Positions 571-16,215 of a stretch of DNA of 53,551 nt are shown here, in pieces. Source of the stretch: Clostridia bacterium (GTDB lineage: Bacteria > Bacillota > Clostridia > Oscillospirales > CAG-272); NCBI GenBank assembly GCA_017481595.1, contig JAFUOY010000006.1, positions 1 to 53,551 of the forward strand, in the 5' to 3' direction. The position numbers were made by a program, and so were the translations under genes. The first letter of the stretch is position 1, and each line of letters begins with the position of its first letter. The notes under the pieces are model-generated. The model was not told the DNA's origin. It did no database searches and saw only the letters and a list, made by a program, of their open reading frames with translations.

Positions 571-648
571 AAATTATTTGCAATGAAATTTGCCTATCGG
601 CAAGTGAAATTCACTTTTGTGAATGAAATGTAATAAATTACATGAAAT
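571..648 (+). repeat. Mini-hairpin array 1, linker TGAAAT, half-array only
   Basis: Four copies of TGAAAT start at 584, 605, 624 and 643, spaced 21, 19 and 19 bases. Between them are short inverted repeats of unrelated sequence: TGCAAAT/ATTTGCA before the first, then TTGCC/GGCAA, TTCAC/GTGAA and GTAA/TTAC. The linker stays constant while the stems differ. Unlike the other four arrays in the window, no copies of the inverted linker follow. The array lies between the GGGtGRT stop codon and its terminator, so it would be transcribed as 3' UTR. Confidence 0.75.
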
Positions 649-678
649 GTGCCACGGGGAAACCTGTGGCACTTTTTT
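649..678 (+). terminator. Intrinsic terminator of GGGtGRT gene
   Basis: GTGCCAC (649-655) pairs with GTGGCAC (666-672) and is followed by six T. It ends the transcript that includes array 1. Confidence 0.85.
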
Positions 679-786
679 AGTTCATATAAGGCACTTTGAA
701 AGAATAAAGAAAGACACATCGTTTGGATCAACCCGCGCTGATGTGTCTGATTTGTTTTAAGACCGATAACGGCGGAACTTTAGCAG

Positions 787-815
787 TTGACTTTTTGTTA
801 AAAATTAGATATAAT
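787..815 (+). promoter_or_regulatory. Sigma-A promoter of VanZ-like gene
   Basis: TTGACT (787-792), 17 bases, TATAAT (810-815). The start codon at 866 is about 50 bases downstream. Confidence 0.8.
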
Positions 816-865
816 GTAGTTGGTTTTAGCTGTATCGCTTGAAAATGCTGTATTGGGGAGAAAAA

Positions 866-1405
866 ATGAACGTTTATAAGAAAAACCGCGCTTTGACTAT
901 ATCTGTTTTAGTTTTTTACGTGATTATACTCTTGTGGATAACGATTTTAAAATGCAATCAAGGGACTCCTATATATGAGTTCAGAATGACCATAGGGCGT
1001 ATGACGGTTGCGGAAAGATTTGCTTTCGCCACGTCACGACTTACGTTAATGGATGGGGGCCTAGCAGAGATGCTACTCAACGCATTCATATTTATCCCCT
1101 TTGGTGTACTTATCCCCCTTTTAAAAGGAAGGGCGGCACCCATATTCACTACGGCTCTTGCCTTATTATCAACGCTTTTAATAGAGTGTTTACAGTTATT
1201 TCTTTGCTTTGGATTGTTTACGTATAGCGATCTAATATTAAACACCGCCGGTGCTGTTTTGGGAATAATCATCTATTCCTATTTTGTAAAACGAATGAAA
1301 GAAGAACACATAAATACAGCCTTAAAAATACTTAACGGATTTGGCGCCGCTATTTCTGTTTTCGCCATAATTAACACTGTCTTGAATATTGAAATATATA
1401 TGTGA
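866..1405 (+). CDS. VanZ-like family membrane protein
   Basis: This is a 179-residue integral membrane protein with about four hydrophobic segments. The central stretch (Leu-Leu-Asn, then Ile-Pro-Phe-Gly, then Ile-Glu-Cys-Leu-Gln, then Asp-Leu-Ile-Leu-Asn-Thr-Ala-Gly) follows the VanZ-like pattern. VanZ gives low-level teicoplanin resistance in enterococci, but most VanZ-like proteins have no known role, so resistance should not be assumed. I chose the ATG at 866 because GGGGAG (855-860) lies five bases upstream; an in-frame TTG at 839 has no such site. The gene is monocistronic, with its own promoter at 787-815 and a terminator at 1556-1587. Confidence 0.75.
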   Translation: MNVYKKNRALTISVLVFYVIILLWITILKCNQGTPIYEFRMTIGRMTVAERFAFATSRLTLMDGGLAEMLLNAFIFIPFGVLIPLLKGRAAPIFTTALALLSTLLIECLQLFLCFGLFTYSDLILNTAGAVLGIIIYSYFVKRMKEEHINTALKILNGFGAAISVFAIINTVLNIEIYM

Positions 1406-1416
1406 TGTATACATAA

Positions 1417-1551
1417 AGCAAAGATTGCGGAAAGATATATGAATTTAAAGGCTGCGAGAGAAAAATCGTTGCCGCCGTAACGGTGCTTTTCGTAATAACC
1501 ACCGTTGATTCCGCTAAATTGATCTATGGGATAGTTACGAGGACAATTTAA
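1417..1551 (+). other. Possible coding remnant after the VanZ-like gene
   Basis: One frame is open for 44 codons up to TAA at 1549 and reads as a plausible membrane-type peptide (Lys-Ile-Val-Ala-Ala-Val-Thr-Val-Leu-Phe-Val). There is no usable start codon near its beginning and no ribosome binding site. It may be the decayed end of a gene, or chance. Otherwise I see only a terminator in 1406-1632. Confidence 0.2.
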
Positions 1552-1555
1552 AGTA

Positions 1556-1587
1556 AAAACTCGAAATTTAGTCGAGTTTTTTGTTTT
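1556..1587 (+). terminator. Intrinsic terminator
   Basis: AAAACTCGA (1556-1564) pairs with TCGAGTTTT (1572-1580), followed by a T-rich tract. It is almost identical to the terminator at 2180-2207. Confidence 0.8.
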
Positions 1588-1632
1588 TATTTATAAAACT
1601 TAGATTCATTTTTCTTTTTTATCCAAAAAATA

Positions 1633-1661
1633 TATACATTTTAAAAATAATGTGGTATAAT
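1633..1661 (+). promoter_or_regulatory. Promoter of structured leader and lipoprotein
   Basis: TATACA (1633-1638), 17 bases, TATAAT (1656-1661). The -10 is perfect and the -35 weak. Transcription would start near 1668, inside the 5' arm of the long hairpin. Confidence 0.6.
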
Positions 1662-1664
1662 AAT

Positions 1665-1825
1665 GTTGCTACACTTCAAATCTTATATTTTATCTCGTAA
1701 GAGGGGATACTTTCGGTAAAAGGTATCGTCTCTCTTTTCTGAATACTCTTACGAGATATAGGAAGAAGTGTAGCAACTTTGAGAGCGTACTTTTTCGGTG
1801 CGTTCTTTCGGGGACGCACTTTTTT
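1665..1825 (+). ncRNA. Long structured leader RNA ending in an intrinsic terminator
   Basis: GTTGCTACACTTC (1665-1677) is exactly complementary to GAAGTGTAGCAAC (1765-1777). Nested inside it, ATCTCGTAAGAG (1692-1703) is exactly complementary to CTCTTACGAGAT (1746-1757), and an inner GATAC/GTATC stem caps it (1705-1709 with 1723-1727). After this roughly 110-base rod comes a GTGCGT/ACGCAC hairpin with six T (1798-1825), then the AGGAGGG-like ribosome binding site of the lipoprotein gene. This arrangement could be an attenuator or riboswitch, or a separately terminated small RNA. I do not recognise it as a known class. Confidence 0.6.
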
Positions 1826-1844
1826 AGTTTGGAGGGATATCTCA

Positions 1845-2162
1845 ATGAAGCTTAATCTTATTGCATTATTTACTGTGTTTTGCATTGTGTTTTCTTTTGC
1901 TTCTTGTTCAAAGGATCTGAATATAACAAGCAATAACGAATATACAAGCACAAGCTTTCAAGATACATCCACTACCACATCAGAAGCTCCCACCACCGAA
2001 GCTCCCGTTTCTTACATTTTAAATAAAAGCTCAAGGATATTCCATTTTGAAAAATGCCCCTCGGTTACAATGATGAAGGAAGATAACAAGATTTTTTGTA
2101 AAGGAAACAGAGATAAGATTATTAAGGACGGATATGAGCCTTGCGGAAGATGCAACCCCTGA
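1845..2162 (+). CDS. Lipoprotein with C-terminal Ada-type metal-binding-like domain
   Basis: The protein has 105 residues. The N-terminus is a lipoprotein signal (hydrophobic stretch, then Ser-Phe-Ala-Ser-Cys, with lipid-modified Cys at about residue 21). A Ser/Thr-rich linker with Thr-Glu-Ala-Pro units follows. The last 45 residues match the small domain that begins Tyr-Ile-Leu-Asn, contains Phe-His-Phe-Glu-Lys-Cys-Pro-Ser, and ends Gly-Tyr-Glu-Pro-Cys-Gly-Arg-Cys-Asn-Pro. It resembles the Ada N-terminal zinc-binding fold often attached to nucleases and surface proteins. The ATG at 1845 follows GGAGGG; longer readings upstream run through the terminator hairpin and are unlikely. The function is unknown; it is probably surface-anchored and may bind metal. 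Expression probably depends on read-through of the terminator at 1798-1825. Confidence 0.75.
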   Translation: MKLNLIALFTVFCIVFSFASCSKDLNITSNNEYTSTSFQDTSTTTSEAPTTEAPVSYILNKSSRIFHFEKCPSVTMMKEDNKIFCKGNRDKIIKDGYEPCGRCNP

Positions 2163-2179
2163 TATCTAACTTTTAAAGA

Positions 2180-2207
2180 AAAAACTCGACATTTAGTCGA
2201 GTTTTTT
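2180..2207 (+). terminator. Intrinsic terminator of lipoprotein gene
   Basis: AAAAACTCGA (2180-2189) pairs with TCGAGTTTTT (2197-2206). Stem and loop differ from the terminator at 1556 by a single base. Confidence 0.85.
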
Positions 2208-2350
2208 GGTTTTTTATTTTGGAGTTTTCCATTATGATGTGTCTATTATTTTTGCATATAAAGCTAAGATTTAAAGGATAAAATAAAAAAAGCGGCTTAT
2301 AAGGGTGCGTATTCTAAAGGACAGTTCTCGAAATCTTATCTACTTAACTT

Positions 2351-2397
2351 AAATAGGACGAGGCACTATAAAGCTCCTCGTCCTATTTTCTTTTTTA
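2351..2397 (+). terminator. Intrinsic terminator, gene unknown
   Basis: AATAGGACGAGG (2351-2362) pairs with CCTCGTCCTATT (2376-2387), followed by TTCTTTTTT. No gene is evident between 2208 and 2350; only a short open stretch without a start is seen there. Array 2 begins directly after its T tract. Confidence 0.75.
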
Positions 2398-2398
2398 G

Positions 2399-2612
2399 TT
2401 ATAGGCGATATGTTTGCTTTTGCAAACGCGATATATTTTCGCCAATGCTCAAATGCGATATTACCGTCGCGTTGCTCTGTAGCGATATGATATAAATCCC
2501 CATAACGCCCGAGAGGGCATATCGCATCGAAGATATATCGCACGCTCATGCGTATATCGCAAATCCCTCAAGGGATTTATATCGTTGCGTAGTGTCCTTA
2601 AGGGCACTACGC
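2399..2612. repeat. Mini-hairpin array 2, linker GCGATAT then ATATCGC
   Basis: GCGATAT occurs at 2405, 2428, 2455 and 2482. Its reverse complement ATATCGC then occurs at 2519, 2535 and 2554, with a variant (ATATCGT) at 2579. The stems between linkers differ: GTTTGC/GCAAAC, GCCC/GGGC, ATC/GAT, ACGC/GCGT and AAATCCC/GGGATTT. A terminal GTAGTG/CACTAC hairpin closes the right end. The linker flips orientation at about 2503, so the whole block can fold into one large cruciform decorated with side hairpins. No credible ORF lies within it. Confidence 0.8.
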
Positions 2613-2733
2613 TAAAGCCCCAACACTTATATTATATCACAAAAAAATTCCTTTGTAAATCACAAATTTTGTTTTTCAAAAAAGTTCTACACATTATACA
2701 AAAATCACCTAAAAATTTCATATACTATGCCAA

Positions 2734-2762
2734 TTGTATTTCCTGAAAAAGTGTGTTATAAT
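2734..2762 (+). promoter_or_regulatory. Promoter of candidate non-coding transcript
   Basis: TTGTAT (2734-2739), 17 bases, TATAAT (2757-2762). No gene follows on this strand. Confidence 0.6.
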
Positions 2763-2768
2763 TGAATT

Positions 2769-3140
2769 ACAAAAGAAGGATGGTACAAACCAATGAAAAA
2801 GTAAAGTTCCTATTTTCTCATTAGTAATTCACCATATAATCTGAACAAACAAGTAAGAACAATAAAAGTTCTGATCACCAAACAAACATTAATATAGAGT
2901 CAGATTTGAATTTCTTTTGAAGAAAATACAAGACCTTCGCCCCAAACGGTGTTAACCATATATCAAATGAGGACTCTCCATAGAGAGTGATGTTGTAGGA
3001 AGAAAGTGAAGGAAAGTTAAAATGATTTGGGGTAGACAATAGAAAGAGAGGATTAGGAAAGATGTTAGATAACAAGGAGCACCAGAGGTGACCTTTAATT
3101 GTGAATTTACGACTCACAGTTAAAGGTCACTTCTTTTTTT
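2769..3140 (+). ncRNA. Candidate untranslated RNA of about 370 bases
   Basis: The stretch has a sigma-A promoter 5' and a strong terminator 3', but no credible reading frame on the plus strand. The first ATG (2793) stops after three codons. A minus-strand frame (2875-3117) has no ribosome binding site and lies within the presumed transcript. It could be a non-coding RNA or the relic of a gene. I recognise no known RNA family. Confidence 0.35.
3088..3140 (+). terminator. Intrinsic terminator
   Basis: GTGACCTTTAA (3088-3098) pairs with TTAAAGGTCAC (3120-3130), with an inner GTGA/TCAC extension and then TTCTTTTTTT. There is no T tract on the minus strand, so it ends a plus-strand transcript. 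Confidence 0.8.
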
Positions 3141-3753
3141 ATTTGTAGGTTTTTAGCTCGGCGAGGTAGCTCTGCGGGCGGTGAGCATCAATACGGGTAT
3201 ATTTGCCCTTTTGACCAATTTCCACAAGGGTGCCAACGTGGTAATAGCCAAGTAGGCGGGGAGGAAGATGGGTAATGGCGTCGTCAAGGTTGCGGATCAA
3301 GGTAAAATTCTCAAAGCGGGATTCTATTTTACTGTTTTTTATACCCCAGAGGACTCTTGGAGCGCCAAAGGCGTATCCGTAGAGGTTATTTTGCAGGTGG
3401 GGATAATTAAACCAGATATATTCATGGCACAAAACCGCCAAGGCGCCGCCGTGGGAAAATCCCGTAACGATAACCTTTTCCACGATGCTATCGTCAAGAT
3501 AGGGCTTAAGATGTGGCTCTATACTTTTCCACACACGCAAAAATCCCCTGTGGGCGTACCAAACTGTGCCGTCCATATTTTTGTACGCTTTTACGGGGAA
3601 GTCAAGATTATTTTCCCAATCCTTTTGACCGTTTGAGCTTTCCAAGTAAATATACAGGGTATTGCCTACCAATTCCACGGCGTAATCACCCGAATTATCC
3701 ACACGTGTGTAGGGAATTTCAATACATTTTGCAAACAGATCGTATAAATTCAT
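3139..3753 (-). CDS. Lipase class 3-like alpha/beta hydrolase
   Basis: This is a 204-residue protein without a signal peptide, so probably cytoplasmic. Residues 98-103 form the nucleophile elbow Gly-Phe-Ser-His-Gly-Gly with Ser100 as the likely catalytic serine. Asp157 or Asp158 (Leu-Asp-Asp-Ala-Ile) and His191 (Ala-His-Arg-Pro-Gln-Ser-Tyr) fit the rest of a triad. The Tyr-Ala-Phe-Gly-Ala-Pro-Arg stretch at 127-133 is typical of lipase class 3 proteins. The substrate is unknown and could be a lipid or another ester. GAGGTGAT precedes the ATG. No promoter of its own is clear, so it may be read from the upstream minus-strand genes past the terminator at 3790-3823. Confidence 0.75.
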   Translation of the reverse strand: MNLYDLFAKCIEIPYTRVDNSGDYAVELVGNTLYIYLESSNGQKDWENNLDFPVKAYKNMDGTVWYAHRGFLRVWKSIEPHLKPYLDDSIVEKVIVTGFSHGGALAVLCHEYIWFNYPHLQNNLYGYAFGAPRVLWGIKNSKIESRFENFTLIRNLDDAITHLPPRLLGYYHVGTLVEIGQKGKYTRIDAHRPQSYLAELKTYK

Positions 3754-3789
3754 AATATCACCTCAGTAAAATATTATGATACCTTGCAT

Positions 3790-3823
3790 AAAAAAAGACC
3801 TTCAAGTCAAGAAGGTCTTTTTT
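3790..3823 (-). terminator. Intrinsic terminator (both strands possible)
   Basis: AAAAAAGACCTTC pairs with GAAGGTCTTTTTT around a short loop. On the minus strand it ends the gene at 3831-4871. Confidence 0.8.
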
Positions 3824-3830
3824 AAAGTGA

Positions 3831-4871
3831 TTATTCAACTATTTCAAAGGGGGACGTGTCTGAATTTGTAGCCTTGTACAATACTGCGTTTGAATAATGA
3901 CCGCAGTCCTTATCGTAGCCGGGGTGGGAGAAATAGTAATATCCGTTGCCGAAGGAGTACACTCCCGTGGAGCCGTAGGGGAAATAGATTCCCTCGCTTA
4001 AGAGGGGCAACACAGAAATTTCCTCTCTGTAGGGGTTATGCACGGATAACTCGGGTGTGGCAAGGGCGGAAACAAAGAACATATCGTAATTTTTATACTG
4101 CGGCTTGCCTCCGCGGTATACACAGAGCATCCATCTTTTACTGTAGGCATCGTATTCAAGGTTTTGCACACCCCAATTTGTGCTTCCCGTTTTTACAAAG
4201 CACTTTGAAAGACTGCTTGCCCCCGATTTATGCATTTTATATTGATTTAAGGGCTTGGCAACGCTATCCCACCAATTTTTGAAGTCGTAGGTGAGAATGA
4301 CCTGATAATCGTTATCCTCTCTGTCCGTGTTGCCGTAGACACCGTAGCAGATGCGAAGATACTCCTCTCCATCATCCGTTCCCCAAGCGGGGCCAAAGGC
4401 AAGACCGTCAATTCCGCTGCAGCCGTATTTATGGTCAAGATCCTTTCCGTCAAGGTGGACCTTTGCTTCAAAATCCTCTACCACCTCGCCAAGATAAACG
4501 GCTCTCATAATTCCGTCGGACTCTGCGTTCATATCCATACGATCGATTTTATTCACGTCAAAAATGACACAGTAAAAGCCATTTTGTATTTCGGTGTCTG
4601 CCATTTGCAGATTTTTCAAAATTTCTCTGCCTATAATATCGTTTTTATACTCAAGGGAGCCGTATACCTTACCGTCGGACTCACAAAAATCGATGCAACC
4701 AAGGTGACCGATAAGACCGTCCACGCTACCAATTACGTTACCGAGGAGGTCGCATTTAATAAGCTTTGTGGTGAAGGAATAGTACACGTATCCCTTTTTT
4801 TCGTCAACGGTTACGCCTTGACAATGGCAAGCGCCCTGATATCCCGAAAAAATTTTGTTTGGAAAATTCAT
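3831..4871 (-). CDS. Conserved hypothetical protein, possible beta-propeller
   Basis: This is a 346-residue soluble protein with no signal peptide. Several segments of about 45 residues have aromatic and glycine patterns like propeller blades (for example Gly-Tyr-Val-Tyr-Tyr-Ser-Phe near the N-terminus and Tyr-Ser-Phe-Gly-Asn-Gly-Tyr-Tyr-Tyr-Phe near the C-terminus). I recognise no catalytic motif. The ATG at 4871 is preceded by AAGGAGAA; an in-frame start 60 bases upstream would overlap the acetyltransferase gene and lacks a site. It lies 16 bases after that gene and is probably co-transcribed with it. Confidence 0.6.
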   Translation of the reverse strand: MNFPNKIFSGYQGACHCQGVTVDEKKGYVYYSFTTKLIKCDLLGNVIGSVDGLIGHLGCIDFCESDGKVYGSLEYKNDIIGREILKNLQMADTEIQNGFYCVIFDVNKIDRMDMNAESDGIMRAVYLGEVVEDFEAKVHLDGKDLDHKYGCSGIDGLAFGPAWGTDDGEEYLRICYGVYGNTDREDNDYQVILTYDFKNWWDSVAKPLNQYKMHKSGASSLSKCFVKTGSTNWGVQNLEYDAYSKRWMLCVYRGGKPQYKNYDMFFVSALATPELSVHNPYREEISVLPLLSEGIYFPYGSTGVYSFGNGYYYFSHPGYDKDCGHYSNAVLYKATNSDTSPFEIVE

Positions 4872-4887
4872 ATTGTTCTCCTTAAGG

Positions 4888-5400
4888 TCAAAGAGTTTTT
4901 TCGTACGCCACGCGGCTATGACCGTTTTCAAGATAGATTATGCCGCAATAGGTAAAGCCGTGCTTTTCAAGCATTCTGCGCATTACCTTGTTTCCCTCGT
5001 GGGTGTCAATACGCAGGGAGCTTCTGCCGAGAGCTTTTGCGTAGTCTGCCGCATAATTGATAATTGACGTGGACACACCCTGACCACGATTTTTAACGGA
5101 AATGGCTACCCTGTGGATGGCAACGTAGCTTTGGCTGTCGTCCCCCGTTATCCAATGTCCGTCGTAAATTTTATCGTAGGTTACCTCTCCGTCGTCAACG
5201 AGGACGAAGGTGCCGCATATTTCTCCGTCAATTACCGCAGAATAGGAGCGGGACAGATCGATATCCGTAAGCACGATCTCGCGCGAGGGATATCCGTCCT
5301 GCCACTGGTCTATGCCGAGGGTGGCAATAGTTCCTCTCGCTTCATCAAATATTTTCATAAGGTTGCAAATATCACAAGTGGCGCTTTTTCTTATCTCCAT
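4888..5400 (-). CDS. GNAT-family N-acetyltransferase
   Basis: The protein has 170 residues, the usual length of a single GNAT domain. Motif A is visible as Val-Ala-Ile-His-Arg-Val-Ala-Ile followed by Arg-Gly-Gln-Gly-Val-Ser (acetyl-CoA pyrophosphate loop, about residues 95-112). Motif B is seen as Met-Leu-Glu-Lys-His-Gly-Phe about 35 residues later. It transfers acetyl from acetyl-CoA to an unknown amine. GGAGG lies in front of the ATG and a consensus promoter at 5428-5456. It heads a likely two-gene transcript with the propeller-like gene. Confidence 0.85.
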   Translation of the reverse strand: MEIRKSATCDICNLMKIFDEARGTIATLGIDQWQDGYPSREIVLTDIDLSRSYSAVIDGEICGTFVLVDDGEVTYDKIYDGHWITGDDSQSYVAIHRVAISVKNRGQGVSTSIINYAADYAKALGRSSLRIDTHEGNKVMRRMLEKHGFTYCGIIYLENGHSRVAYEKTL

Positions 5401-5427
5401 ATAAGCCTCCGACGTTTTCTTTTCTAC

Positions 5428-5456
5428 ATTATATCAAAAAGGCGAACAAAAATCAA
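5428..5456 (-). promoter_or_regulatory. Sigma-A promoter of GNAT gene
   Basis: On the minus strand: TTGATT (5451-5456), 17 bases, TATAAT (5428-5433). Confidence 0.8.
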
Positions 5457-5547
5457 GGCGTAGGCAGTATGCTTTGGGTAGAAAGAGGTCGGTTTTTGTG
5501 AGTATAAAAAATAATAAAAAAAATTTTAAAAATTTTTAAAATAGTTA

Positions 5548-5576
5548 TTGACAAGTAGAAAAACCTGTGCTATAAT
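5548..5576 (+). promoter_or_regulatory. Consensus sigma-A promoter of tRNA-Gln
   Basis: TTGACA (5548-5553), 17 bases, TATAAT (5571-5576). Both hexamers are perfect consensus, as expected for a strong tRNA promoter. Confidence 0.9.
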
Positions 5577-5597
5577 GTTGGAGCAAAAAGCGAATAT

Positions 5598-5671
5598 TGG
5601 GGAATTGTGTAACGGCAGCACGACAGACTCTGACTCTGTTTGTGAGGGTTCAAATCCTTCTTCCCCAGCCA
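5598..5671 (+). tRNA. tRNA-Gln (anticodon CTG)
   Basis: The full cloverleaf is readable: acceptor TGGGGAA/TTCCCCA, D stem GTG/CAC, anticodon stem ACAGA/TCTGT with loop CTCTGAC (anticodon CTG, reading CAG), T stem GAGGG/CCTTC with loop TTCAAAT, discriminator G and encoded CCA. It has its own promoter and a terminator. The 3' 21 bases are repeated exactly at 6094-6114. Confidence 0.93.
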
Positions 5672-5676
5672 AAAAA

Positions 5677-5706
5677 ATCGACAAGTTTCAACTTGTCGAT
5701 TTTTTT
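5677..5706 (+). terminator. Intrinsic terminator of tRNA-Gln
   Basis: ATCGACAAGT (5677-5686) pairs with ACTTGTCGAT (5691-5700), followed by six T. Confidence 0.9.
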
Positions 5707-5708
5707 AT

Positions 5709-5892
5709 CCAAGCCGCAGGCTTGGTATATCATCGCCGCGCGAAGCGTGGTGCATATCATCAGCCCCTTTGGGGCTGTATCTCATCACGCGACAGCGTGT
5801 ATCTGTCTGCGGCTTGATGATATACAACGGCAAGCCGTTGGTGATATACAATTCCTGTAGAATTGATGATATACACGCCTTACGGCGTGATT
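5709..5892. repeat. Mini-hairpin array 3, linker TATATCATC then GATGATATA
   Basis: The left half has TATATCATC-type linkers at about 5726, 5753 and 5777. The right half has the inverted form GATGATATAC at 5816 and 5865, and GTGATATAC at 5841. The stems vary: CCGCGC/GCGTGG (with a G-T pair), AGCCCC/GGGGCT, CACGC/GCGTG, AACGG/CCGTT, AATTC/GAATT and CACGCC/GGCGTG, with loops of 3-5 bases. AAGCCGCAG at the left end (5711-5719) returns inverted as CTGCGGCTT at the centre (5807-5815). The array starts two bases after the tRNA-Gln terminator. Confidence 0.85.
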
Positions 5893-6093
5893 TTGCGTTT
5901 GAGTTCAAAACCTTATTGCAAACCGCAAAAAATATCCTTTTCGTAGCCTTTGTTTTTATCGTTGTAAAACTGCACAGAAGGATTTGAACCAAGGCGTTAA
6001 AAAAGGTGCCGGGGGCACGTTTTAGCCGATGACCGAAGGATTTTGCAAGACATAACGATGCATAAAAGCTAACTGTCTTGCAAAATTCAAGAG

Positions 6094-6114
6094 CAAATCC
6101 TTCTTCCCCAGCCA
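6094..6114 (+). repeat. Direct copy of the tRNA-Gln 3' end
   Basis: Bases 6094-6114 are identical to 5651-5671 (T loop, acceptor strand and CCA of tRNA-Gln), and both are followed by a run of A and a terminator. A 14-base inverted piece of the T arm also occurs at 5977-5990. A tRNA 3' end repeated 443 bases downstream looks like the paired attachment sites of an integrated element, but no integrase gene lies between. Confidence 0.75.
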
Positions 6115-6151
6115 AAAACAAAAGCACTTCGTAAGAAGTGCTTTTGTTTTT
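6114..6151 (+). terminator. Long terminator-like hairpin after the tRNA 3' copy
   Basis: Seventeen paired bases: AAAAACAAAAGCACTTC (6114-6130) with its reverse complement (6135-6151), loop GTAA. Array 4 begins directly after it. Confidence 0.75.
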
Positions 6152-6154
6152 GGA

Positions 6155-6327
6155 ACGATGTGTTCCGCTTGCGCGGAACGTGATGCGCACTTCGTGCGTG
6201 ATGTTTCCTTCGGAAGTGATGTGCGCTTCGCGCGTGAGTAAGGAACACATCACATCACTTTGCGACGAAGGAGCAATACATCACTGTGCGATAGCACTAC
6301 ATCACTTCGGCGCAGCCGATACTTCAC
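6155..6327. repeat. Mini-hairpin array 4, linker GTGATG then CATCAC
   Basis: GTGATG occurs at 6180, 6198 and 6216. The inverted CATCAC occurs at 6248, 6253, 6279 and 6300. The stems vary: GTTCCGC/GCGGAAC, CGCAC/GTGCG, TTCC/GGAA, GCGC/GCGC, TTGC/GCAA, GTGC/GCAC and TCGGC/GCCGA. GATGTGTTCC at the left end (6157-6166) is repeated inverted at the centre (6242-6251). The right end abuts the promoter at 6330. Confidence 0.85.
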
Positions 6328-6329
6328 TA

Positions 6330-6358
6330 TTTACAAACAAAGATTTTTATGCTATAAT
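6330..6358 (+). promoter_or_regulatory. Sigma-A promoter of small membrane protein gene
   Basis: TTTACA (6330-6335), 17 bases, TATAAT (6353-6358), directly downstream of array 4. Confidence 0.8.
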
Positions 6359-6464
6359 ATTCGCAACAAATAATTTTCATAAACTTTTCTTGCAAAAATC
6401 TGTTAGAGGATTATCGCGGATGGCTTGATAGCAGACAAAAATGATAATGAAAGGATAAACAAGA

Positions 6465-6944
6465 ATGAAGCCAATTATCCCCCCCGTTGAATTTGTGTCA
6501 CCATTATCCGAGGCTGAGGTCAGAATGACTTTAAAAGAACTGTGCGGATCAAAATGGGATAATTGCCCGTTTGATGGAGAGGTCAATAATAACTCCTTTC
6601 GATTGATAAAAAATCAACGCCCTTTTGTCTACACAAAAGGAATTCCAAAGCCAATACTCATAGGTGATTTTGTTGGACAAGGTGAACGAACAAAGGTGAC
6701 GATATCGCTAGATACAAGAATTACAGATATCATTGGATTGTTAATATTAGTTTTAGGCGCAATTGGATTGGCGGGTTATGGTTTTGTTTCTATGCTTGAT
6801 GAAGGTTTTATTGTAGCGATCGTTTCGGCTATGATGATTTGCGGTCTTGGCATTGGATTTTCTGCTTTAGATTATTTTTTGATTTGGTCGAGCTTTCATA
6901 AATCTGTCAATAAGATCAAAAAGGCTTTGGGTATTTCCTCATAA
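6465..6944 (+). CDS. Hypothetical two-span membrane protein
   Basis: The protein has 159 residues. The first 85 are soluble and contain a Lys-Trp-Asp-Asn-Cys-Pro stretch. Two strong membrane segments follow, at about residues 87-108 and 116-138, and then a short basic tail. I recognise no family. The start at 6465 has only a weak site (AAAGGAT about 10 bases upstream). The gene is monocistronic, with a promoter at 6330-6358. Confidence 0.6.
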   Translation: MKPIIPPVEFVSPLSEAEVRMTLKELCGSKWDNCPFDGEVNNNSFRLIKNQRPFVYTKGIPKPILIGDFVGQGERTKVTISLDTRITDIIGLLILVLGAIGLAGYGFVSMLDEGFIVAIVSAMMICGLGIGFSALDYFLIWSSFHKSVNKIKKALGISS

Positions 6945-7017
6945 GTTTAACACTCTTTGTAATAATAAAGTACAATGTCATCTATTTCGGTCGTCAAACA
7001 CATAAAAATATATGACG

Positions 7018-7063: not shown

Positions 7064-7141
7064 GGACTCTGATTTTAGGAGACAAAAAAGCCAAAAAAAG
7101 CCACTTTTGGGCATAAAACTGTTGTCAAAATTTTTAAAGTG

Positions 7142-7531: not shown

Positions 7532-7532
7532 A

Positions 7533-9664: not shown

Positions 9665-9670
9665 ACTGAA

Positions 9671-10463: not shown

Positions 10464-10499
10464 ACTGATACCTTCCTTTAAAAGAGCTTTAACATAATC

Positions 10500-10528
10500 A
10501 GTATAGCACAAAAAGTCGCCAAACGCAA
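10500..10528 (-). promoter_or_regulatory. Promoter of isomerase-like gene
   Basis: Minus strand: TTGCGT (10523-10528), 17 bases, TATACT (10500-10505). Confidence 0.6.
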
Positions 10529-10559
10529 TACAAAACCTTAAAACGCCTGCGTATTATAC

Positions 10560-10588
10560 TTGAAATAAGAAAATATTTATGATAGAAT
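10560..10588 (+). promoter_or_regulatory. Promoter of GH43-like gene
   Basis: TTGAAA (10560-10565), 17 bases, TAGAAT (10583-10588). Confidence 0.7.
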
Positions 10589-10613
10589 AGATAAAAACGC
10601 TTTGGAGGACATT

Positions 10614-11447
10614 ATGCCCAATATAAATGATATAAGAATTCGAGATCCGTTTATACTTACCGATAAGGAAAACGGATGCTACTATATGTACGGAACCACC
10701 GCCCTTGAAAACGGATCCCTTGCCGCAAGAAATACCTTTACGGTATATAAATCCTACGACCTTGTAAATTTTGACGATGGCAAGATAATAGTTGACGGAG
10801 ATAAGCTCGACTTCTGGGCTGACCGTGATTTCTGGGCTCCCGAGGTGCATATCTACAACGGAAAATATTACCTTTTCGGAAGCTGTAATGCGGAGGGCAA
10901 ATGCCGCGCAACACAGATCTACGTATGCGACACTCCCGACGGTGAATTCGTTCCCCTCTCTGCCGAGGCAAGAACGCCCGAGGATTGGATATGCCTTGAC
11001 GGTACGTTATACGTGGAAAACGGCACTCCCTATATGGTGTTCTCCCGCGAGTGGATACAGGTGCTTGACGGAGAGATGTGGGCAGTAGAGCTTTCTTCTG
11101 ACCTTAGTAAAAGAGTTGGCGAGCCCTTTAAGCTATTTTCCGCGTCCGAGGCAAAGGACGTAACGGAGTTTGGCGGTATTAAGGGCGCGTATATAACGGA
11201 CGGTCCCTTTATGTATCACGAAAACGGAAAGCTCCGTATGATGTGGTCAAGCTTTAACGAGGGCAGATATGTTGTGCTTATTGCAGAAAGCGACTCTATA
11301 AAGGGTGAATGGACGCATCTTGGCAGTCAGTTTGATTTTTGCGGCGGACACGGTATGATATTCACCGACCTTAGCGGAAAAAGAATGATGTCCCTCCACA
11401 GTCCCAACACGGCGGACTATGAAAGAGCGAAATTTTTTGAAATTTAA
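10614..11447 (+). CDS. Glycoside hydrolase family 43-like protein
   Basis: This is a 277-residue five-bladed propeller hydrolase without a signal peptide, so intracellular. Arg-Asp-Pro-Phe-Ile near residue 10 carries the catalytic Asp general base. Phe-Trp-Ala-Pro-Glu-Val and Tyr-Tyr-Leu-Phe-Gly-Ser near residue 75-90 are typical GH43 blade signatures. At the position where many GH43 enzymes have Glu-Gly-Pro, this one has Thr-Asp-Gly-Pro-Phe, which occurs in some subfamilies but leaves the general acid uncertain. It may cleave arabinose- or xylose-containing oligosaccharides. ATG 10614 follows GGAGG at 10604-10608. Confidence 0.8.
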   Translation: MPNINDIRIRDPFILTDKENGCYYMYGTTALENGSLAARNTFTVYKSYDLVNFDDGKIIVDGDKLDFWADRDFWAPEVHIYNGKYYLFGSCNAEGKCRATQIYVCDTPDGEFVPLSAEARTPEDWICLDGTLYVENGTPYMVFSREWIQVLDGEMWAVELSSDLSKRVGEPFKLFSASEAKDVTEFGGIKGAYITDGPFMYHENGKLRMMWSSFNEGRYVVLIAESDSIKGEWTHLGSQFDFCGGHGMIFTDLSGKRMMSLHSPNTADYERAKFFEI

Positions 11448-11501
11448 TTAAAATACGTAACGCAGTTTTCGTTACATTCATTAAGAAAGAGAGAAACAGA
11501 T

Positions 11502-12320
11502 ATGGCTAAAAAGGAATGGAGCATATCACTCAAAAGGGAATTTTACAAGGATATTTTCGGAATTGCGTTATTTCCGTTTATGCTTTGCATATTCACCGCA
11601 ATAGTATTTATAGTTTACCTTTCTCCCACTATTAAAATGATAAAGGGAGACCGTCCTATACAATACAGCGACAAGGTTGGCACCTATTACGTGGAAACAA
11701 ACTACAACGATATTTACGGAACGTCAAGCGCGCCTCAGGACAATATGGTTATCGTATTTTTTGCAAACAAGGATTGTGATCAGTATTACTGTCTTCCTAT
11801 GACGGGAAACAATATCAGAAAGGACGTGGCAAGTGTTTTTGCAGGGTCTGAATCCGTATTCGGAAAGGCGATGCGCGAAAAAATGGACCTTGATAGAGGC
11901 TACAAGTATACATTGGATGATGATCTTGCGTATATTATAGGCAAGGCAGAGGAAAAGATCGCTTCCCTCTCTATTACCTCCTCGTTTAAAACTGAGAGTG
12001 ACAGAGGAAATATTATTGGGTCCCATATTATAAATAATACGGATATTGAGCTGTCGGGCAGTCTTAATGCGGCAATAAAGAGCTTTACCGAGGAGACGGA
12101 TATCAGCGTGACGGTGATCATAGATAAGGCGGAAAGCGTATTTGGATTAAAGACGCCTACGTCAAACATTTTGTTCCTCGTTGCGTTTACGGCTCTTTCA
12201 ATATTCTATATCGTAAAGGCTACCATCAAGATAGTAAGACGAGTTCGCTTTGAGAAAAATCCCCAGCTTTTCTACAAGCCCACAATTTACGATCAAAATT
12301 CCGAGGAGGACGGATATTGA
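11502..12320 (+). CDS. Hypothetical membrane protein with two terminal spans
   Basis: The protein has 272 residues. One membrane segment lies at about 20-42 and another at about 220-240, with a roughly 175-residue domain between them, probably outside the cell. The C-terminal tail is basic then acidic. No family is recognised. The site AGAAAGAGAG lies before the ATG. No promoter is evident in the 54-base gap, which holds a small GTAACG/CGTTAC hairpin, so it may be co-transcribed with the GH43 gene. A strong terminator follows. Confidence 0.65.
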   Translation: MAKKEWSISLKREFYKDIFGIALFPFMLCIFTAIVFIVYLSPTIKMIKGDRPIQYSDKVGTYYVETNYNDIYGTSSAPQDNMVIVFFANKDCDQYYCLPMTGNNIRKDVASVFAGSESVFGKAMREKMDLDRGYKYTLDDDLAYIIGKAEEKIASLSITSSFKTESDRGNIIGSHIINNTDIELSGSLNAAIKSFTEETDISVTVIIDKAESVFGLKTPTSNILFLVAFTALSIFYIVKATIKIVRRVRFEKNPQLFYKPTIYDQNSEEDGY

Positions 12321-12332
12321 TTTAATAAAATA

Positions 12333-12368
12333 CGCGCTGAGTTCTTAACGAGCTCAGCGCGATTTTTT
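12333..12368 (+). terminator. Intrinsic terminator
   Basis: CGCGCTGAG (12333-12341) pairs with CTCAGCGCG (12353-12361), followed by ATTTTTT. Confidence 0.9.
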
Positions 12369-12392
12369 GTTCAAATTAGTTTTTTAAATTAC

Positions 12393-12553
12393 TACTCATC
12401 CACCGCTAACGTGGATTGCCCTTCCCAAAACATAGTCGCCTCGCGCGCCTCGATACACTTGGCTTCGACGCTCCTTGTTTTGGTTACACACTCGACAAAT
12501 TAACACAGCGTGTTGATTTGCCTTCGTTCTCCCCTTCCCTCGCAAGGGAAGGC
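12393..12553. repeat. Interspersed repeat, long form (TACTCATCCACC ... CCCTTCCCT/AGGGAAGG)
   Basis: The block begins TACTCATCCACC (12393-12404) and ends with the hairpin CCCCTTCCCT/AGGGAAGG (12531-12552), like the short copy at 31470-31519. Between them are further inverted repeats: CCAAAACA with TGTTTTGG-like bases, and CAAATTAACAC with GTGTTGATTTG (one G-T pair). It carries no ORF. It fills the gap between a terminator and the end of the minus-strand regulator. Confidence 0.6.
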
Positions 12554-12585
12554 TCCGAAGTAAGTATACTTTACAAGTAATAGTT

Positions 12586-13119
12586 TTATTTTATTCCTGC
12601 ATTATCTGCATACTTTTTTACGATCTCTGCCCAACGCTGATTCTTAAATTCACGATTAACGTCAGACATATCCACGTAATAACCGCAGTTCACACACTGA
12701 ATAATTGCCTCTGCAACGAGGGCTTCATATGAATATTCGTCGTTTACATACTCCTCAAGCTCAATATTCATTTTGGCATTGATGCCCTCTACTGCGCCAA
12801 TATAAAAGGCGTTATCCTTTCCAAGAAGCTTGCCTATCTTTCCAACGCAATCAATCGCTTCTTTTGCGTCCTTTACAGTGATCTTTTTTGTATAAGATGT
12901 CATTTTTTTACCTCCACTTAAAATATTATCGGTCGTGGTCTCCAGCACTGAGGCAAGATCGGGCAAAAGAGATATATCCGGCATACTCTCTCCCCTTTCC
13001 CATTTTGAAACAGCCTGAAAGGAAACGTACAAACGGTCTCCCAACTCATTTTGAGTTAATCCCTTGCTTTTTCTGAGCCTTGCTATGTGGTTACCAATTT
13101 CTTTTGTATCAAAAGCCAT
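12586..13119 (-). CDS. XRE-family transcriptional regulator
   Basis: The protein has 177 residues. Residues 5-60 form a helix-turn-helix of the Cro/CI type (Leu-Thr-Gln-Asn-Glu-Leu-Gly, then Ser-Phe-Gln-Ala-Val-Ser-Lys-Trp-Glu-Arg-Gly), a form common in Firmicutes. The C-terminal part is a roughly 110-residue domain I do not recognise, with Cys-Val-Asn-Cys-Gly-Tyr. ATG 13119 follows AAAGGAGGA; the longer reading starts upstream without a site. It may regulate the divergent PHP-ARH operon, though the intergenic gap is also just where its own promoter lies. Confidence 0.85.
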   Translation of the reverse strand: MAFDTKEIGNHIARLRKSKGLTQNELGDRLYVSFQAVSKWERGESMPDISLLPDLASVLETTTDNILSGGKKMTSYTKKITVKDAKEAIDCVGKIGKLLGKDNAFYIGAVEGINAKMNIELEEYVNDEYSYEALVAEAIIQCVNCGYYVDMSDVNREFKNQRWAEIVKKYADNAGIK

Positions 13120-13159
13120 AATTATCCTCCTTTTGATGTTTTGAAGTACTTCTGTCATT

Positions 13160-13188
13160 ATTGTAGCACCGTATCAGCAAAATATCAA
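13160..13188 (-). promoter_or_regulatory. Sigma-A promoter of XRE regulator
   Basis: Minus strand: TTGATA (13183-13188), 17 bases, TACAAT (13160-13165). Confidence 0.75.
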
Positions 13189-13259
13189 TAACGCCGTAGT
13201 TTCATTTTTCCCGATAAAAATAAACCGTGAGTTGAATATGTATTTTGCTACATTTTTTA

Positions 13260-13288
13260 TTGACGGAGATAAAAAAAGATGATACAAT
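13260..13288 (+). promoter_or_regulatory. Sigma-A promoter of PHP-ARH operon
   Basis: TTGACG (13260-13265), 17 bases, TACAAT (13283-13288). Confidence 0.75.
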
Positions 13289-13313
13289 GATTATATATAA
13301 TAGGAGGTATATT

Positions 13314-14612
13314 ATGGCTATCGGTTTATCTAATCACGAGGTTTATCCAAGGGTTGTGCGCTGCGGATGTCCGCAGACTGTAAGCATTGTGCCCGTTGGT
13401 ACTGTTGCAAAATTCAATGACGAGTGGGTGTACAATATCGGTATCGTTCCCACAGAGTGCTCCGACCAGACGTATATCGAGCAGGAAAGAGCTGTGGACA
13501 CTATAAAGGTAAAGCCCATAGACGGCGTTATTACCTTTACCTATACCTTTGACGAGGAGCAGGAATGGGCGTTGCTTCTTGCCCCCGAAATATATCCTAC
13601 GTCAATAAGAAAATACAGCGTGTACTCCGTTATGGACGATCTTTACGAAAGGACCCCGTACAAGGGAGACCTCCACGCACATTCCAACTCCTCCGACGGA
13701 AATGAGGAGCCCTGTATCGTTGCGGCAAATTACAGAAAAAACGGCTTTGACTTTTTCGCCTTGACGGATCATCACAAGTTCCAGCCCTCCCTTGACCTTA
13801 TTGAATATTACAAGGATCTGCCTATAGATTTCAAGATCTTTACGGGTGAGGAGATACACTTAAAGGGATATTACATCCACACAGTAAACTTTGGAGGTAA
13901 GTCCAGCGTAAACGAGCATTACAACTCTGATCCCGACGGTATGCACGAGGAAATCAAGAAGATGTCCGAGACACTAAGCGTGCCTGCGGGAATAAACAAG
14001 CTTGAATTTGCGTACAGAAAATGGATAGCCGAAGAAATACACAAGCGCGACGGCTTTGCAATTATTGCCCATCCCTTCTGGATATGGAAGGACGAATGGC
14101 ATATGCGCCCGAGGATGGTTGATTATTTGCTTGGCGAGGAATTATATGACGCCATGGAAATTGTAAGCGGCGTTTCCCCTCACGAAACAAATCTTCAGAC
14201 CGCATTTTATAACGAGCAAAGAGCCAAGGGCAGAAAAATCGCCATTGTAGGCTCAAGCGACTGTCACGGCACGGACCCTGCGCTTTTCTTTAACAATTCC
14301 AAGTCCATTGTTTTTGCAAAGGACCTTGAATATTCATCTATCTGCTCCGCCATCAAGGATCTTTACTCCGTTGCGGTGGAAACAAGACCTAACGAGGAAA
14401 TAAGAATCTACGGTCCGTTCCGTCTTGTTAAATACGCCCGATTCCTTATGAATAATTACTTCCCCATGCACGACGAAATGTGCTTTGAGGAGGGACGCCT
14501 TATGAAGGAATACATAAGGGGAGATAAGGACGCTGTCAAGCTACTTGAAATTATGCAGGGCAGAACGAAAAAATTAGCTGACAAATTACTTAGACAAGGA
14601 GATAACAAATGA
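13314..14612 (+). CDS. PHP-domain phosphoesterase
   Basis: The protein has 432 residues. The first 110 form a beta-rich domain of unknown type. The PHP domain follows, with the metal-binding motifs His121-Ala-His123 and Asp128, Thr-Asp152-His153-His, Gly-Glu-Glu180, a later Ala-His-Pro-Phe-Trp, and Gly-Ser-Ser-Asp-Cys-His-Gly near 332. All are expected of a metal-dependent phosphoesterase; the substrate is unknown. ATG 13314 follows AGGAGGT. The stop overlaps the start of the next gene by four bases (ATGA), indicating translational coupling to the ADP-ribosylglycohydrolase. Confidence 0.85.
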   Translation: MAIGLSNHEVYPRVVRCGCPQTVSIVPVGTVAKFNDEWVYNIGIVPTECSDQTYIEQERAVDTIKVKPIDGVITFTYTFDEEQEWALLLAPEIYPTSIRKYSVYSVMDDLYERTPYKGDLHAHSNSSDGNEEPCIVAANYRKNGFDFFALTDHHKFQPSLDLIEYYKDLPIDFKIFTGEEIHLKGYYIHTVNFGGKSSVNEHYNSDPDGMHEEIKKMSETLSVPAGINKLEFAYRKWIAEEIHKRDGFAIIAHPFWIWKDEWHMRPRMVDYLLGEELYDAMEIVSGVSPHETNLQTAFYNEQRAKGRKIAIVGSSDCHGTDPALFFNNSKSIVFAKDLEYSSICSAIKDLYSVAVETRPNEEIRIYGPFRLVKYARFLMNNYFPMHDEMCFEEGRLMKEYIRGDKDAVKLLEIMQGRTKKLADKLLRQGDNK

Positions 14613-15979
14613 AGCAGATTCCCATTGATAGTATGCACGGTCTTGTAGGCTGGTGGGGTGACTACTCCGGTGAGCTTATGACAGAATATCAGCAATCCGT
14701 TGAGGAGGGCAAGGACGTAGAAAATTACAAGGGTCTTTTTGAGGAGGTAGCAAAGCTTCCGAGATCCGAGGCAAGATCAAAGCTTGCCGACGGACTTTTC
14801 CACCTTATATACAACGCAGAGATGAGAGAGGGCTACAAATACGATGAGCCATCCGACCTTGAGGGTATTAAAGCATTAAGAAAAAAGACACTCCCCCCGC
14901 TTAATTTCACAAAAGTGGACAAAAAGAAGATAGAGGGCGCTTGGTACGGACGTATTGCGGGATGCTTACTCGGTAAGCCTATTGAGGGCATCAGATTTGA
15001 CGGTCTTACAAAGCTTCTTAAGGCTACTGATAACTATCCTATGTCAAGATATATCAAACACGGTGAGCTTACCCCCGAGCTTTGTACCCTTGCAAATTTC
15101 GATCTTCTTAATCAGTGGAAGGCACACTGTTACATTGACAATCTTGAATACGCCCCCTACGACGACGACACCAACTACGTTGTTATGAACTGTCTTGCGG
15201 TTGAAAGATTCGGCAGAGGATTTACTCCCTTCAATATGGCGGATATGTGGCTTAAGATGCAGCCCAAGGAAGCGTATTGCACAGCGGAAAGAGTTGCCTT
15301 TTCCAACTTTATAAAGGGATATAATCCCCCTTATTCCGCGGTATACAAGAATCCCTACAGAGAATGGATCGGCGCGCAGATACGCGGAGATTACTTTGGC
15401 TACTGCAACCCCGGAGATACGGAAAGTGCGGCTGAAATGGCGTTTAATGACGCTTGCATTTCACATATCAAAAACGGTATCTACGGTGAAATGTGGGCAT
15501 CTGCAACTATTGCGGCTTGCGCAGTTTGTGATGACCCAAGACTCGCTATTCTTTACGGTATGGAGGAGATCCCCGCAACGTCCCGTCTTTACGAGGCCCT
15601 TGAAAACGCCATCAAGAACTACGATAGCGGTATGACGGAGGAGGAGTGGTTCAACGATTTCCACTCAAGATGGGATGACAAAAACAGCCACCATTGGTGC
15701 CACACCATATCAAATGCAGAAATTTGCGCAGCAGCGCTTCTCTACGGTAAGGGCGACTTTACAAGAAGTGTTTGTATCGCGGTACAAAACGGATTTGACA
15801 CGGACTGTAACGGCGCAACCGTTGGCTCTATGTGTGGAATTATGAGGGGCATTGACGGTATCGGCAAGGAATGGTATGAAAATATCAACGGCACCCTTGA
15901 AACATCACTTTGCACCTACGCTAAGGTTTCCATTGACGAGTTTGTTGAAAAGACATTATATCATATTGAAAATAAATAA
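14609..15979 (+). CDS. ADP-ribosylglycohydrolase family protein
   Basis: The protein has 456 residues. After about 100 N-terminal residues of unknown fold comes an ARH/DraG-type domain: Gly-Arg-Ile-Ala-Gly-Cys-Leu-Leu-Gly-Lys-Pro (114-124), the metal-binding Asp185-Asp-Asp-Thr-Asn, Gly-Asp-Thr-Glu near 270, and the C-terminal Asp397-Thr-Asp-Cys-Asn-Gly-Ala. Family members remove ADP-ribose from proteins or hydrolyse related N- or O-glycosides, and relatives often sit in carbohydrate loci. Coupling to a PHP phosphoesterase suggests consecutive steps on one nucleotide or sugar-phosphate substrate, which is inference. Confidence 0.88.
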   Translation: MKQIPIDSMHGLVGWWGDYSGELMTEYQQSVEEGKDVENYKGLFEEVAKLPRSEARSKLADGLFHLIYNAEMREGYKYDEPSDLEGIKALRKKTLPPLNFTKVDKKKIEGAWYGRIAGCLLGKPIEGIRFDGLTKLLKATDNYPMSRYIKHGELTPELCTLANFDLLNQWKAHCYIDNLEYAPYDDDTNYVVMNCLAVERFGRGFTPFNMADMWLKMQPKEAYCTAERVAFSNFIKGYNPPYSAVYKNPYREWIGAQIRGDYFGYCNPGDTESAAEMAFNDACISHIKNGIYGEMWASATIAACAVCDDPRLAILYGMEEIPATSRLYEALENAIKNYDSGMTEEEWFNDFHSRWDDKNSHHWCHTISNAEICAAALLYGKGDFTRSVCIAVQNGFDTDCNGATVGSMCGIMRGIDGIGKEWYENINGTLETSLCTYAKVSIDEFVEKTLYHIENK

Positions 15980-16007
15980 CCCTTTAAATGAATTAAAGGA
16001 CAGAGAC

Positions 16008-16215
16008 TTTTAGCGTGTTATCCTTAACGGAGAACACGCTAAAACTAAGTTTGCCCTTCGGGCAAGTGAAGTTATCTTCGATAGTGAAGTTCACTTCGTG
16101 AGTGAAGTTTCGCCTTGCGGCGAAGTAAAGGCAAACTTAACTTCACTGTGAGCCCGTGGCGAACAACTTCACTGTGCCCGGCACAACTTCACTTTTGCGT
16201 CAGCAAAAACTTCAC
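16008..16215. repeat. Mini-hairpin array 5, linker GTGAAGTT then AACTTCAC
   Basis: GTGAAGTT occurs exactly at 16066, 16084 and 16102; its reverse complement AACTTCAC occurs exactly at 16139, 16165, 16185 and 16208. The stems between differ: TTGCCC/GGGCAA, TATC/GATA, TCAC/GTGA, TTCGCC/GGCGAA, GCC/GGC (with outer TGT/ACA), TGTGC/GCACA and TTTTGC/GCAAAA. AAGTTTGCC at the left (16047-16055) returns inverted at the centre as GGCAAACTT (16130-16138). A larger TTTAGCGTGTT/AACACGCTAAA hairpin (16008-16044) precedes the array. Confidence 0.88.

Follow-up and report, generated by a model that had tools for sequence, protein, structure and literature searches.

What are the five noncoding blocks of short, linker-separated hairpins (arrays 1 to 5) that lie on contig JAFUOY010000006.1 of a Clostridia bacterium (assembly GCA_017481595.1), and how did they come to stand there? 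The blocks had been described in an earlier note made from the sequence alone, and the window, by which we mean the whole stretch of 53,551 bases analysed here, was compared with related genomes. We conclude, with a probability of about 0.8, that the five arrays are non-autonomous or decayed copies, lacking the open reading frame (ORF), of stand-alone elements that carry an S23p gene (PF05635) and are situated at gene 3′ ends. The computed observations behind this reading are the association with S23p genes, the position after transfer RNA (tRNA) genes, the dispersed copies, the scar at array 4 and the covariation of the array-5 stems. S23p is known from the intervening sequences of 23S ribosomal RNA (rRNA) and is of unknown function (PMC4990558).

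Design of the arrays

A strict detector, which calls an array where at least three copies of one 6-mer occur with a hairpin between copies, recovered all five arrays, with runs at 560-649, 2535-2584, 5776-5875, 6179-6222, 16065-16109 and 16163-16215, and no further run of at least three copies was found anywhere in the 53,551 bases. Two strict runs overall were obtained from 200 first-order Markov shuffles of the window, with at most one in any shuffle, which bears out the five linker-hairpin blocks claimed by the earlier note. Arrays 2 to 5 are palindromic in their linkers, the linker changing to its own reverse complement at the centre, and in arrays 3, 4 and 5 the left-end sequence also returns inverted at the centre; both features, read from the sequence, are as the note had stated. 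Its description of constant linkers and variable stems requires qualification, as the stems vary within one array but are conserved and covarying between copies (as tested in the array-5 family), and the linkers, described as different between arrays, are mutually similar, by eye mostly of the form NTGAWRTN. Against 100 shuffles, the fold z-scores of arrays 1 to 5 were −4.6, −4.3, −3.7, −2.2 and −3.9 as RNA and −5.6, −4.2, −4.9, −3.6 and −6.4 as DNA, array 4 being the weakest.

Association of the arrays with S23p genes

Every array in the window matches an array that adjoins an S23p gene in a related genome. Among 29 genomes of the genus, the window's own included, PF05635 gave 84 matches in 27 genomes, and 70 of these were read, the other 14 being mostly fragments or at contig ends. 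A strict array was present in the 450 bp upstream of the gene at 40 of the 65 loci with full upstream sequence, compared with 8 of 70 downstream and 2 of 199 control windows taken at acetyltransferase genes of the same genus; far-flank windows held a strict array in 1 of 9 and 2 of 127 cases. A similar proportion was found in a set of named GTDB genomes, comprising the best 80 of 580 confirmed relatives, which is not an even sample and whose record titles name Clostridia-type bacteria (one just 'bacterium'), mostly from animal gut. Here 41 of the 68 loci with 450 bp of upstream sequence carried a strict array, or 39 of 66 after removal of genus-set duplicates (the two sets have three loci in common, of which two count towards the 68).

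When the 130 distinct S23p loci (132 sorted, minus two double-counted) were classified by their 450 bp of upstream sequence, 78 contained a strict array, 16 tandem heptamers, 26 at least five copies of one 6-mer and 10 none of these. The same three repeat classes were found in 2, 2 and 13 of the 199 acetyltransferase windows, giving 120/130 S23p loci versus at most 17/199 controls when the classes are summed. Arrays are visible by eye at the 'none' loci L085, L105, L107, L166 and L170 (L, G and C numbers denote our loci, genomes and contigs). A relaxed version of the detector found arrays at 40 of 64 loci, no gain over the strict version.

Array 5, used as a query, matched 23 of the 29 genus genomes, and at two of the loci fetched with it (L019 and L025) an ORF for a four-helix bundle follows immediately after the array. 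Three S23p proteins searched against Pfam gave PF05635 as their sole match, without an enzyme domain, and PADLOC returned no match for three S23p proteins. Solved structures of the family include 2RLD and 2GSC, and the S23p of Xanthomonas is described as a homopentamer (PMC4990558).

Relatives of each array with the S23p gene

No PF05635 match lies inside the window, and the three of its own genome sit on C19, C23 and C24. In L049, the relative of array 4, the array is located before an S23p gene. The two sequences align across the array and on into a promoter-like stretch as far as 6363; the homology is taken up again at 6365-6390 (25/26 identical), a segment that corresponds to the last part of the L049 ORF together with its 3′ flank. 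Array 4 therefore looks like an internal deletion derivative of an array and S23p element.

Array 1 is 80% identical over 116 bases to L071, which together with L148 represents an array and S23p element in G016; by this alignment array 1 is an apparent ORF-less relative of the G016 element, of which the left half alone is retained. The gene that ends at array 1 is present in 22 genomes, with 20 readable gene ends. The TGAAAT array was found at three of these (G000, G016 and G026) and was absent at 17, among them those of the two genomes that encode a protein 100% identical to the one in the window. The 3′ arm of the hairpin at the boundary of array 1 is an inverted copy of its 5′ arm and is absent at the array-free sites of G007 and G010.

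The remaining three arrays show the same relationship. Array 2 is 75% identical over 111 bases to the S23p locus L202, and its linker also occurs upstream of S23p in L094 and L106. The L068 match of array 3 is an array located before an S23p gene, and array 5 is 81% identical over 183 bases to the S23p-bearing L019. The segment with array 3 is flanked by a repeat of the tRNA 3′ end, found as an exact copy 443 bp downstream and as a partial inverted copy at 5976-5990; the repeats are, to judge from their arrangement, an insertion or recombination scar. The element of array 5 is enclosed by two outer arms that form a terminator-like stem. Coordinates of these features are collected in Table 1.

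Table 1. Positions in the window of the five arrays and of the features associated with them
Feature	Position	Strand	Remarks
Boundary hairpin GCAAATAATTTG-TGTG-CAAATTATTTGC	554..581	+	5′ arm is the host gene end, including its stop codon
Array 1, TGAAAT linkers	554..676	+	At the 3′ end of a GGGtGRT-type gene
Array 2, GCGATAT linkers then ATATCGC	2405..2612	.	Strict detector
tRNA gene	5598..5668	+	Rfam; terminator-like hairpin at 5671-5706 precedes array 3
Direct repeat of tRNA 3′ end, 25 nt	5651-5675 and 6094-6118	+	Flanks the segment with array 3
Array 3, TATATCATC linkers then GATGATATA	5708..5891	+	79% over 194 to L068
Terminator-like hairpin, 19 bp	6112..6153	+	Directly precedes array 4
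Array 4, GTGATG linkers then CATCAC	6153..6332	+	86% over 211 bases to L049
Putative scar of deleted S23p gene	6333..6390	+	By comparison with L049
Left outer arm AAAGGACAGAGA	15995..16006	+	Pairs with 16360-16371
Left-end hairpin TTTTAGCGTG..CACGCTAAAA	16008..16044	+	Present in 18/30 array-5 loci read
Array 5, GTGAAGTT linkers then AACTTCAC	16045..16216	+	Covarying stems; whole block about 16008-16216
Right outer arm TCTCTGTCCTTT, then T-rich sequence	16360..16371	+	Pairs with 15995-16006

Dispersal and boundaries of the array-5 family

Among the array-5 matches listed, which do not include the weakest, at least 66 in 20 genomes span at least 100 bases of the query (array 5 included), by a tally made from the match listings; four of these adjoin S23p and ORF-less copies predominate. 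Near-identical copies occur at different sites: two copies in G008 have 98% identity over 254 bases and left flanks that are unrelated, and two in G016 have 95-98% identity and likewise differ in their flanks. A third pair, in G013, was rejected as a case of transposition, being 100% identical over 1246 bases including the flanks and thus a duplicated or redundantly assembled region. These dispersed copies with different flanks, the association with S23p and the array-4 scar support the proposal of the earlier note that the arrays could be a mobile element.

An outer inverted repeat (score of at least 10) was present in the flanks of 9 of 17 array-5 copies versus 7% of cross-pairings between copies, the 17 being those with enough flanking sequence among the 18 that have the left-end hairpin, of 30 loci. 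Several copies resemble a terminator stem in having a left outer arm rich in A and a right one rich in T. Outer arms of terminator-like form also bound the elements of L318 and L320, and for L319 a pairing between more distant arms is visible by eye. The 25-nt repeat around array 3 is a candidate target duplication.

Two array-5 copies (L029 near 1673 and L038 near 1619) have the array interrupted by a CTCGGGG/GGGGTTCCC-type repeat, which in L029 lies inside the loop of the first hairpin; similar stretches flank L020 and L021. L320 (G008:C35) is a composite, in which arrays with GTGAAGTT and AGTGATATT linkers stand back to back between similar left-end hairpins.

Position at gene 3′ ends

The arrays of the window lie behind protein and tRNA genes, and a corresponding position is found at many S23p loci. 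Within 480 bp upstream, 28 of the 62 loci of the genus and 36 of the 66 named ones (two belonging to both sets) have a tRNA gene on their own strand, and none has one on the opposite strand; among control loci the count was 0 of 30. Many further S23p loci follow conserved genes that we take, from their translated ends, to be GuaA, DnaN, AsnS, SecA, GalK and RumA. A hairpin that takes in the stop codon, with 8 bp or more in its stem and composed of the coding end and an inverted copy of it, was found at 7 of 50 gene-end loci, one locus being counted twice, versus 2 of 265 control ends.

Two terminator-like hairpins elsewhere in the window (1547-1588 and 2172-2213) are 93% identical to each other and 625 bp apart. 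A 15-nt tandem repeat at 16535-16690, near the start of a long ORF, encodes by eye a linker rich in Thr, Ala, Pro and Glu.

Stem covariation and the Gut-1 RNA

In the left half of array 5, aligned over 20 distinct rows, stems were paired in 90-100% of cells (15-64% when slid), every helix shows two-sided changes, and the order of the hairpins is kept throughout. The fold was taken from one of the 20 sequences, which favours it on these percentages; rows left out were loci without both anchors, short or identical sequences, and L029 and L038 with their inserts. The long-range helix that joins the left end to the centre is paired in 180 of 180 cells, again with two-sided changes, and the 5′ arm TTTGCC has two possible partners, one near and one far, both pairings being conserved. 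G-T pairs are about as rare as A-C mismatches, with 6 versus 8 of 578 cells in the array-5 left half and 8 versus 5 of 1622 cells in 390 distinct inter-linker hairpins (strongly mismatched segments were omitted from the latter count, G-T and A-C being handled alike). Because selection on RNA should leave many G-U pairs, covariation without a G-T preference points to DNA or a copying process over RNA; both strands seem to matter, or the arms to have been copied from each other. The earlier suggestion of selection or a copying process acting on structure is supported, and that of an RNA decoration at 3′ ends is weakened by the G-T counts.

Rfam matches over threshold in the window were limited to tRNA and Gut-1 (RF01706), with no rRNA or intron RNA. 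Array 1 passes the Gut-1 model at 581-653 with 52.5 bits against a threshold of 50, array 5 falls just below with 47.5 bits, and arrays 4 and 2 give 31.5 bits each (the latter on the minus strand, 2514-2587); no Gut-1 match was listed for array 3, and most of the remaining sub-threshold Rfam matches are likely chance. The window's own genome holds 11 Gut-1 matches, 9 above threshold, compared with matches in 5 of 398 genomes of a phylum sample, 4 above threshold. At 10 of the 20 loci examined, of 70, a Gut-1 match (E up to 0.05) is located 5′ of the S23p gene; in 2 of these 20 (L042 and L075) it exceeds the threshold. Gut-1 was presented as a candidate noncoding RNA with the label 'Human gut only' in Weinberg 2010 (PMC2864571). 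The earlier note knew of no described class with these properties. That statement is in part mistaken, in that array 1 passes the Gut-1 threshold and array 5 nearly does, and in that tandem repeats immediately 5′ of an S23p ORF are on record for one 23S rRNA intervening sequence (PMC4990558). Searches of the open-licence literature of PMC, made through their result listings, turned up nothing that connects Gut-1 or linker-hairpin arrays with S23p.

Linkers and heptamer repeats

The linkers follow the relatedness of the S23p proteins. Pairs of proteins that are 75-90% identical have a linker 6-mer in common in 84% of cases, compared with 6% at 45-55% identity, and in a Mantel test on pairs below 90% identity (120 loci, two possibly double-counted) linker sharing correlated with protein identity at r 0.51, a value that none of 999 permutations reached. 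This correlation fits cognate recognition of the linker by the protein.

A second form of repeat appears when the family is followed beyond the genus. S23p matches were found in 73 of the 398 phylum genomes, and the 30 best-scoring loci were located by a hidden Markov model (HMM). Tandem repeats of period 7 lie upstream of S23p at 13 of the 29 phylum loci with enough upstream sequence, other periods being found at 0-1, compared with 9 of 67 genus loci, 8 of 74 named loci and 0 of 85 control windows; the HMM pass covered period-7 repeats only. Heptanucleotide repeats have been described in cyanobacteria, and the period-7 repeats of the phylum are possibly of the same kind. In a 23S rRNA intervening sequence of Coxiella, heptameric tandem repeats stand directly 5′ of the S23p ORF (PMC4990558). 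We regard heptamer and linker as probable counterparts and take the hairpins to have been added in these Clostridia.

Further loci show heptamers in other settings. In L315, from an IMG/VR contig, the S23p ORF is placed between inverted tandem heptamers on either side, and repeats lie 5′ of S23p in the viral-collection loci L313 and L314; period-7 repeats of many sequences lie upstream of S23p in L275, L278, L284, L286, L290 and other phylum loci. TTCACT-type heptamers without hairpins occur at the S23p loci L185, L186, L191, L204, L235, L237 and L241, where inspection by eye shows a preceding tRNA whose terminator has its 3′ arm repeated on the far side.

Proposed mechanism and alternative explanations

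A complete element would be composed of a palindromic array (L ... L′) with one mini-hairpin per linker, followed by a gene for a four-helix-bundle protein of S23p/Avd-like type, and would lie at a gene 3′ end, directly behind or within the terminator hairpin of a tRNA or protein gene. The cognate S23p oligomer is predicted to bind at the linker. The array may act as DNA, its hairpins or cruciform being extruded when single-stranded in replication, and the element would spread via fold-back or template-switching synthesis by host polymerases, aided by S23p bound to the linkers. Such copying would explain both the near-perfect stems on both strands and the inverted copy of the target arm at some boundaries, and host polymerases are favoured because S23p is without an enzyme domain and reverse transcriptase and Y1 transposase occur in fewer genomes than S23p does. 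On a broader and tentative view, which we hold at somewhat less than even odds, there would be a class of mobile elements without a recognised enzyme, in which an S23p/Avd-like protein and a palindromic array of its own motif exploit host synthesis at gene 3′-end hairpins and re-template the arms, with Gut-1, heptamer arrays beside S23p genes and the 23S rRNA intervening sequences among its forms or remnants. Should neither a transposase nor a reverse transcriptase take part, this would be an unusual route of transposition.

Several observations weigh against arrays 1 to 5 being copies of S23p elements. At 14 phylum S23p loci located with a crude ORF finder, on which the hairpin-array tally for the phylum rests, a hairpin array was found neither upstream nor downstream. 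The correlation of linker and protein could be explained by plain co-inheritance. Boundary hairpins with a stop codon are limited to the 7 of 50 gene-end loci, and the nearest long upstream ORF is on the same strand at 65 loci, opposite at 50 and lacking at 10 (ORFs unverified), without a clear strand bias. One of the three near-identical pairs, that of G013, has common flanks; 8 of 17 array-5 copies fall below the outer-repeat score, and L321 and L319 gave none or just 8 bases in the same test. Array 5 is absent from G007 and G010, where the downstream sequence differs and hence no clean empty site is available, and in L300 the search for an empty site did not find the gene end. No transposition event was observed in the genomes compared, and no general rule of target duplication was established.

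The alternatives fare less well. That the arrays are RNA features, either a small RNA (Gut-1) or 3′-untranslated structures selected for stability or termination, is suggested by the Gut-1 scores of array 1 and of 9 of the 11 matches in its own genome, by the strong folds, by the position after genes and by the candidacy of Gut-1 as a noncoding RNA (PMC2864571). We consider this unlikely, since RNA selection tolerates G-U and no excess of G-T over A-C is seen, the DNA fold z-scores are stronger than those of RNA in four of five arrays, many copies are ORF-less, some with different flanks, and half of the 20 loci examined have their Gut-1 match 5′ of an S23p gene. Growth of the arrays in place, by local template switching or slippage without mobility, with S23p tolerating or preferring such loci, would draw on the tendency of palindromes and short repeats to mutate in place, and two array copies do stand side by side at G027:C14. 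It is very improbable in view of entire ordered arrays at unrelated sites with up to 98% identity, of the scar of an S23p gene in array 4 and of a hairpin order conserved over 20 distinct rows.

Mobilisation of S23p elements in trans, by a reverse transcriptase of the kind found in diversity-generating retroelements or by an IS200/REP-type Y1 transposase, is also quite improbable. Hairpins are typical substrates of Y1 transposases, and PF05635 is considered Avd-like (PMC10053308). The distribution of the enzymes largely excludes either one: of the 29 genomes, 3 (1 of the 11 near-complete ones) contain PF00078 (reverse transcriptase) and 12 (5 of 11) PF01797 (Y1 transposase), with neither in G000 (62% complete), compared with 27 (11 of 11) that contain S23p. 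G001, G007 and G008, which are 96-97% complete, have neither enzyme family, yet have S23p and array-5 matches. The enzyme searches comprised these two families, draft genomes may miss genes, and an enzyme may have been present formerly. Copying of S23p elements by host polymerases remains the route that we favour.

Comparison with known systems

A CRISPR (clustered regularly interspaced short palindromic repeats) array differs from those described here, in which the spacers are self-complementary. Group IIC introns target terminators; they are unlike the present elements in that PF00078 occurs in 3 of 29 genomes and Rfam detects no intron RNA in the window. REP (repetitive extragenic palindromic) sequences, with their BIME (bacterial interspersed mosaic element) and REPIN (REP doublet forming hairpins) arrangements and RAYT (REP-associated tyrosine transposase) enzymes, resemble the arrays as dispersed intergenic hairpins in inverted arrangement. 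Here, in contrast, stems differ within an array whose linker stays constant, and PF01797 has no match in G000. The likeness to miniature inverted-repeat transposable elements lies in the many ORF-less copies and few with an ORF, the internal deletion, and the dispersed near-identical copies with different flanks; no regular target duplication is shown here, and to our knowledge S23p is not known as a transposase. Diversity-generating retroelements are similar in that their Avd protein resembles PF05635 (PMC10053308), and unlike in that no reverse transcriptase was found in 26 of the 29 host genomes.

Gut-1 shares with the arrays its hairpins with TGAAAT-like linkers between them, array 1 being over threshold, and differs in modelling three hairpins only, as a noncoding RNA; as described in the available part of its source, it has no link to S23p, to an inverted second half or to gene ends. 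With the present comparison this 'orphan' RNA gains a host context and a likely identity. The 23S rRNA intervening sequences are similar in their PF05635 ORF, which is found in the relatives of all five arrays and not in the window copies, and in their hairpin placement and, in Coxiella, heptamers 5′ of the ORF (PMC4990558). Their complementary ends have a partial counterpart here, in the outer arms of 9 of 17 array-5 copies and the stop-codon hairpins of 7 of 50 gene-end loci; excision by RNase III without ligation is a further trait of the intervening sequences. The elements here differ in lying behind tRNA and protein genes outside the 23S rRNA, in having hairpins between the linkers at most S23p loci read, and in the predominance of ORF-less copies among the array-5 matches listed. 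S23p elements may thereby help to explain how insertions reach rRNA hairpins. S23p and Gut-1 were known; what is added here is the S23p element that stands on its own with a linker-hairpin array, along with derivatives that lack the ORF. Placed at gene ends, such elements provide a tractable system for testing S23p as a mobility factor.

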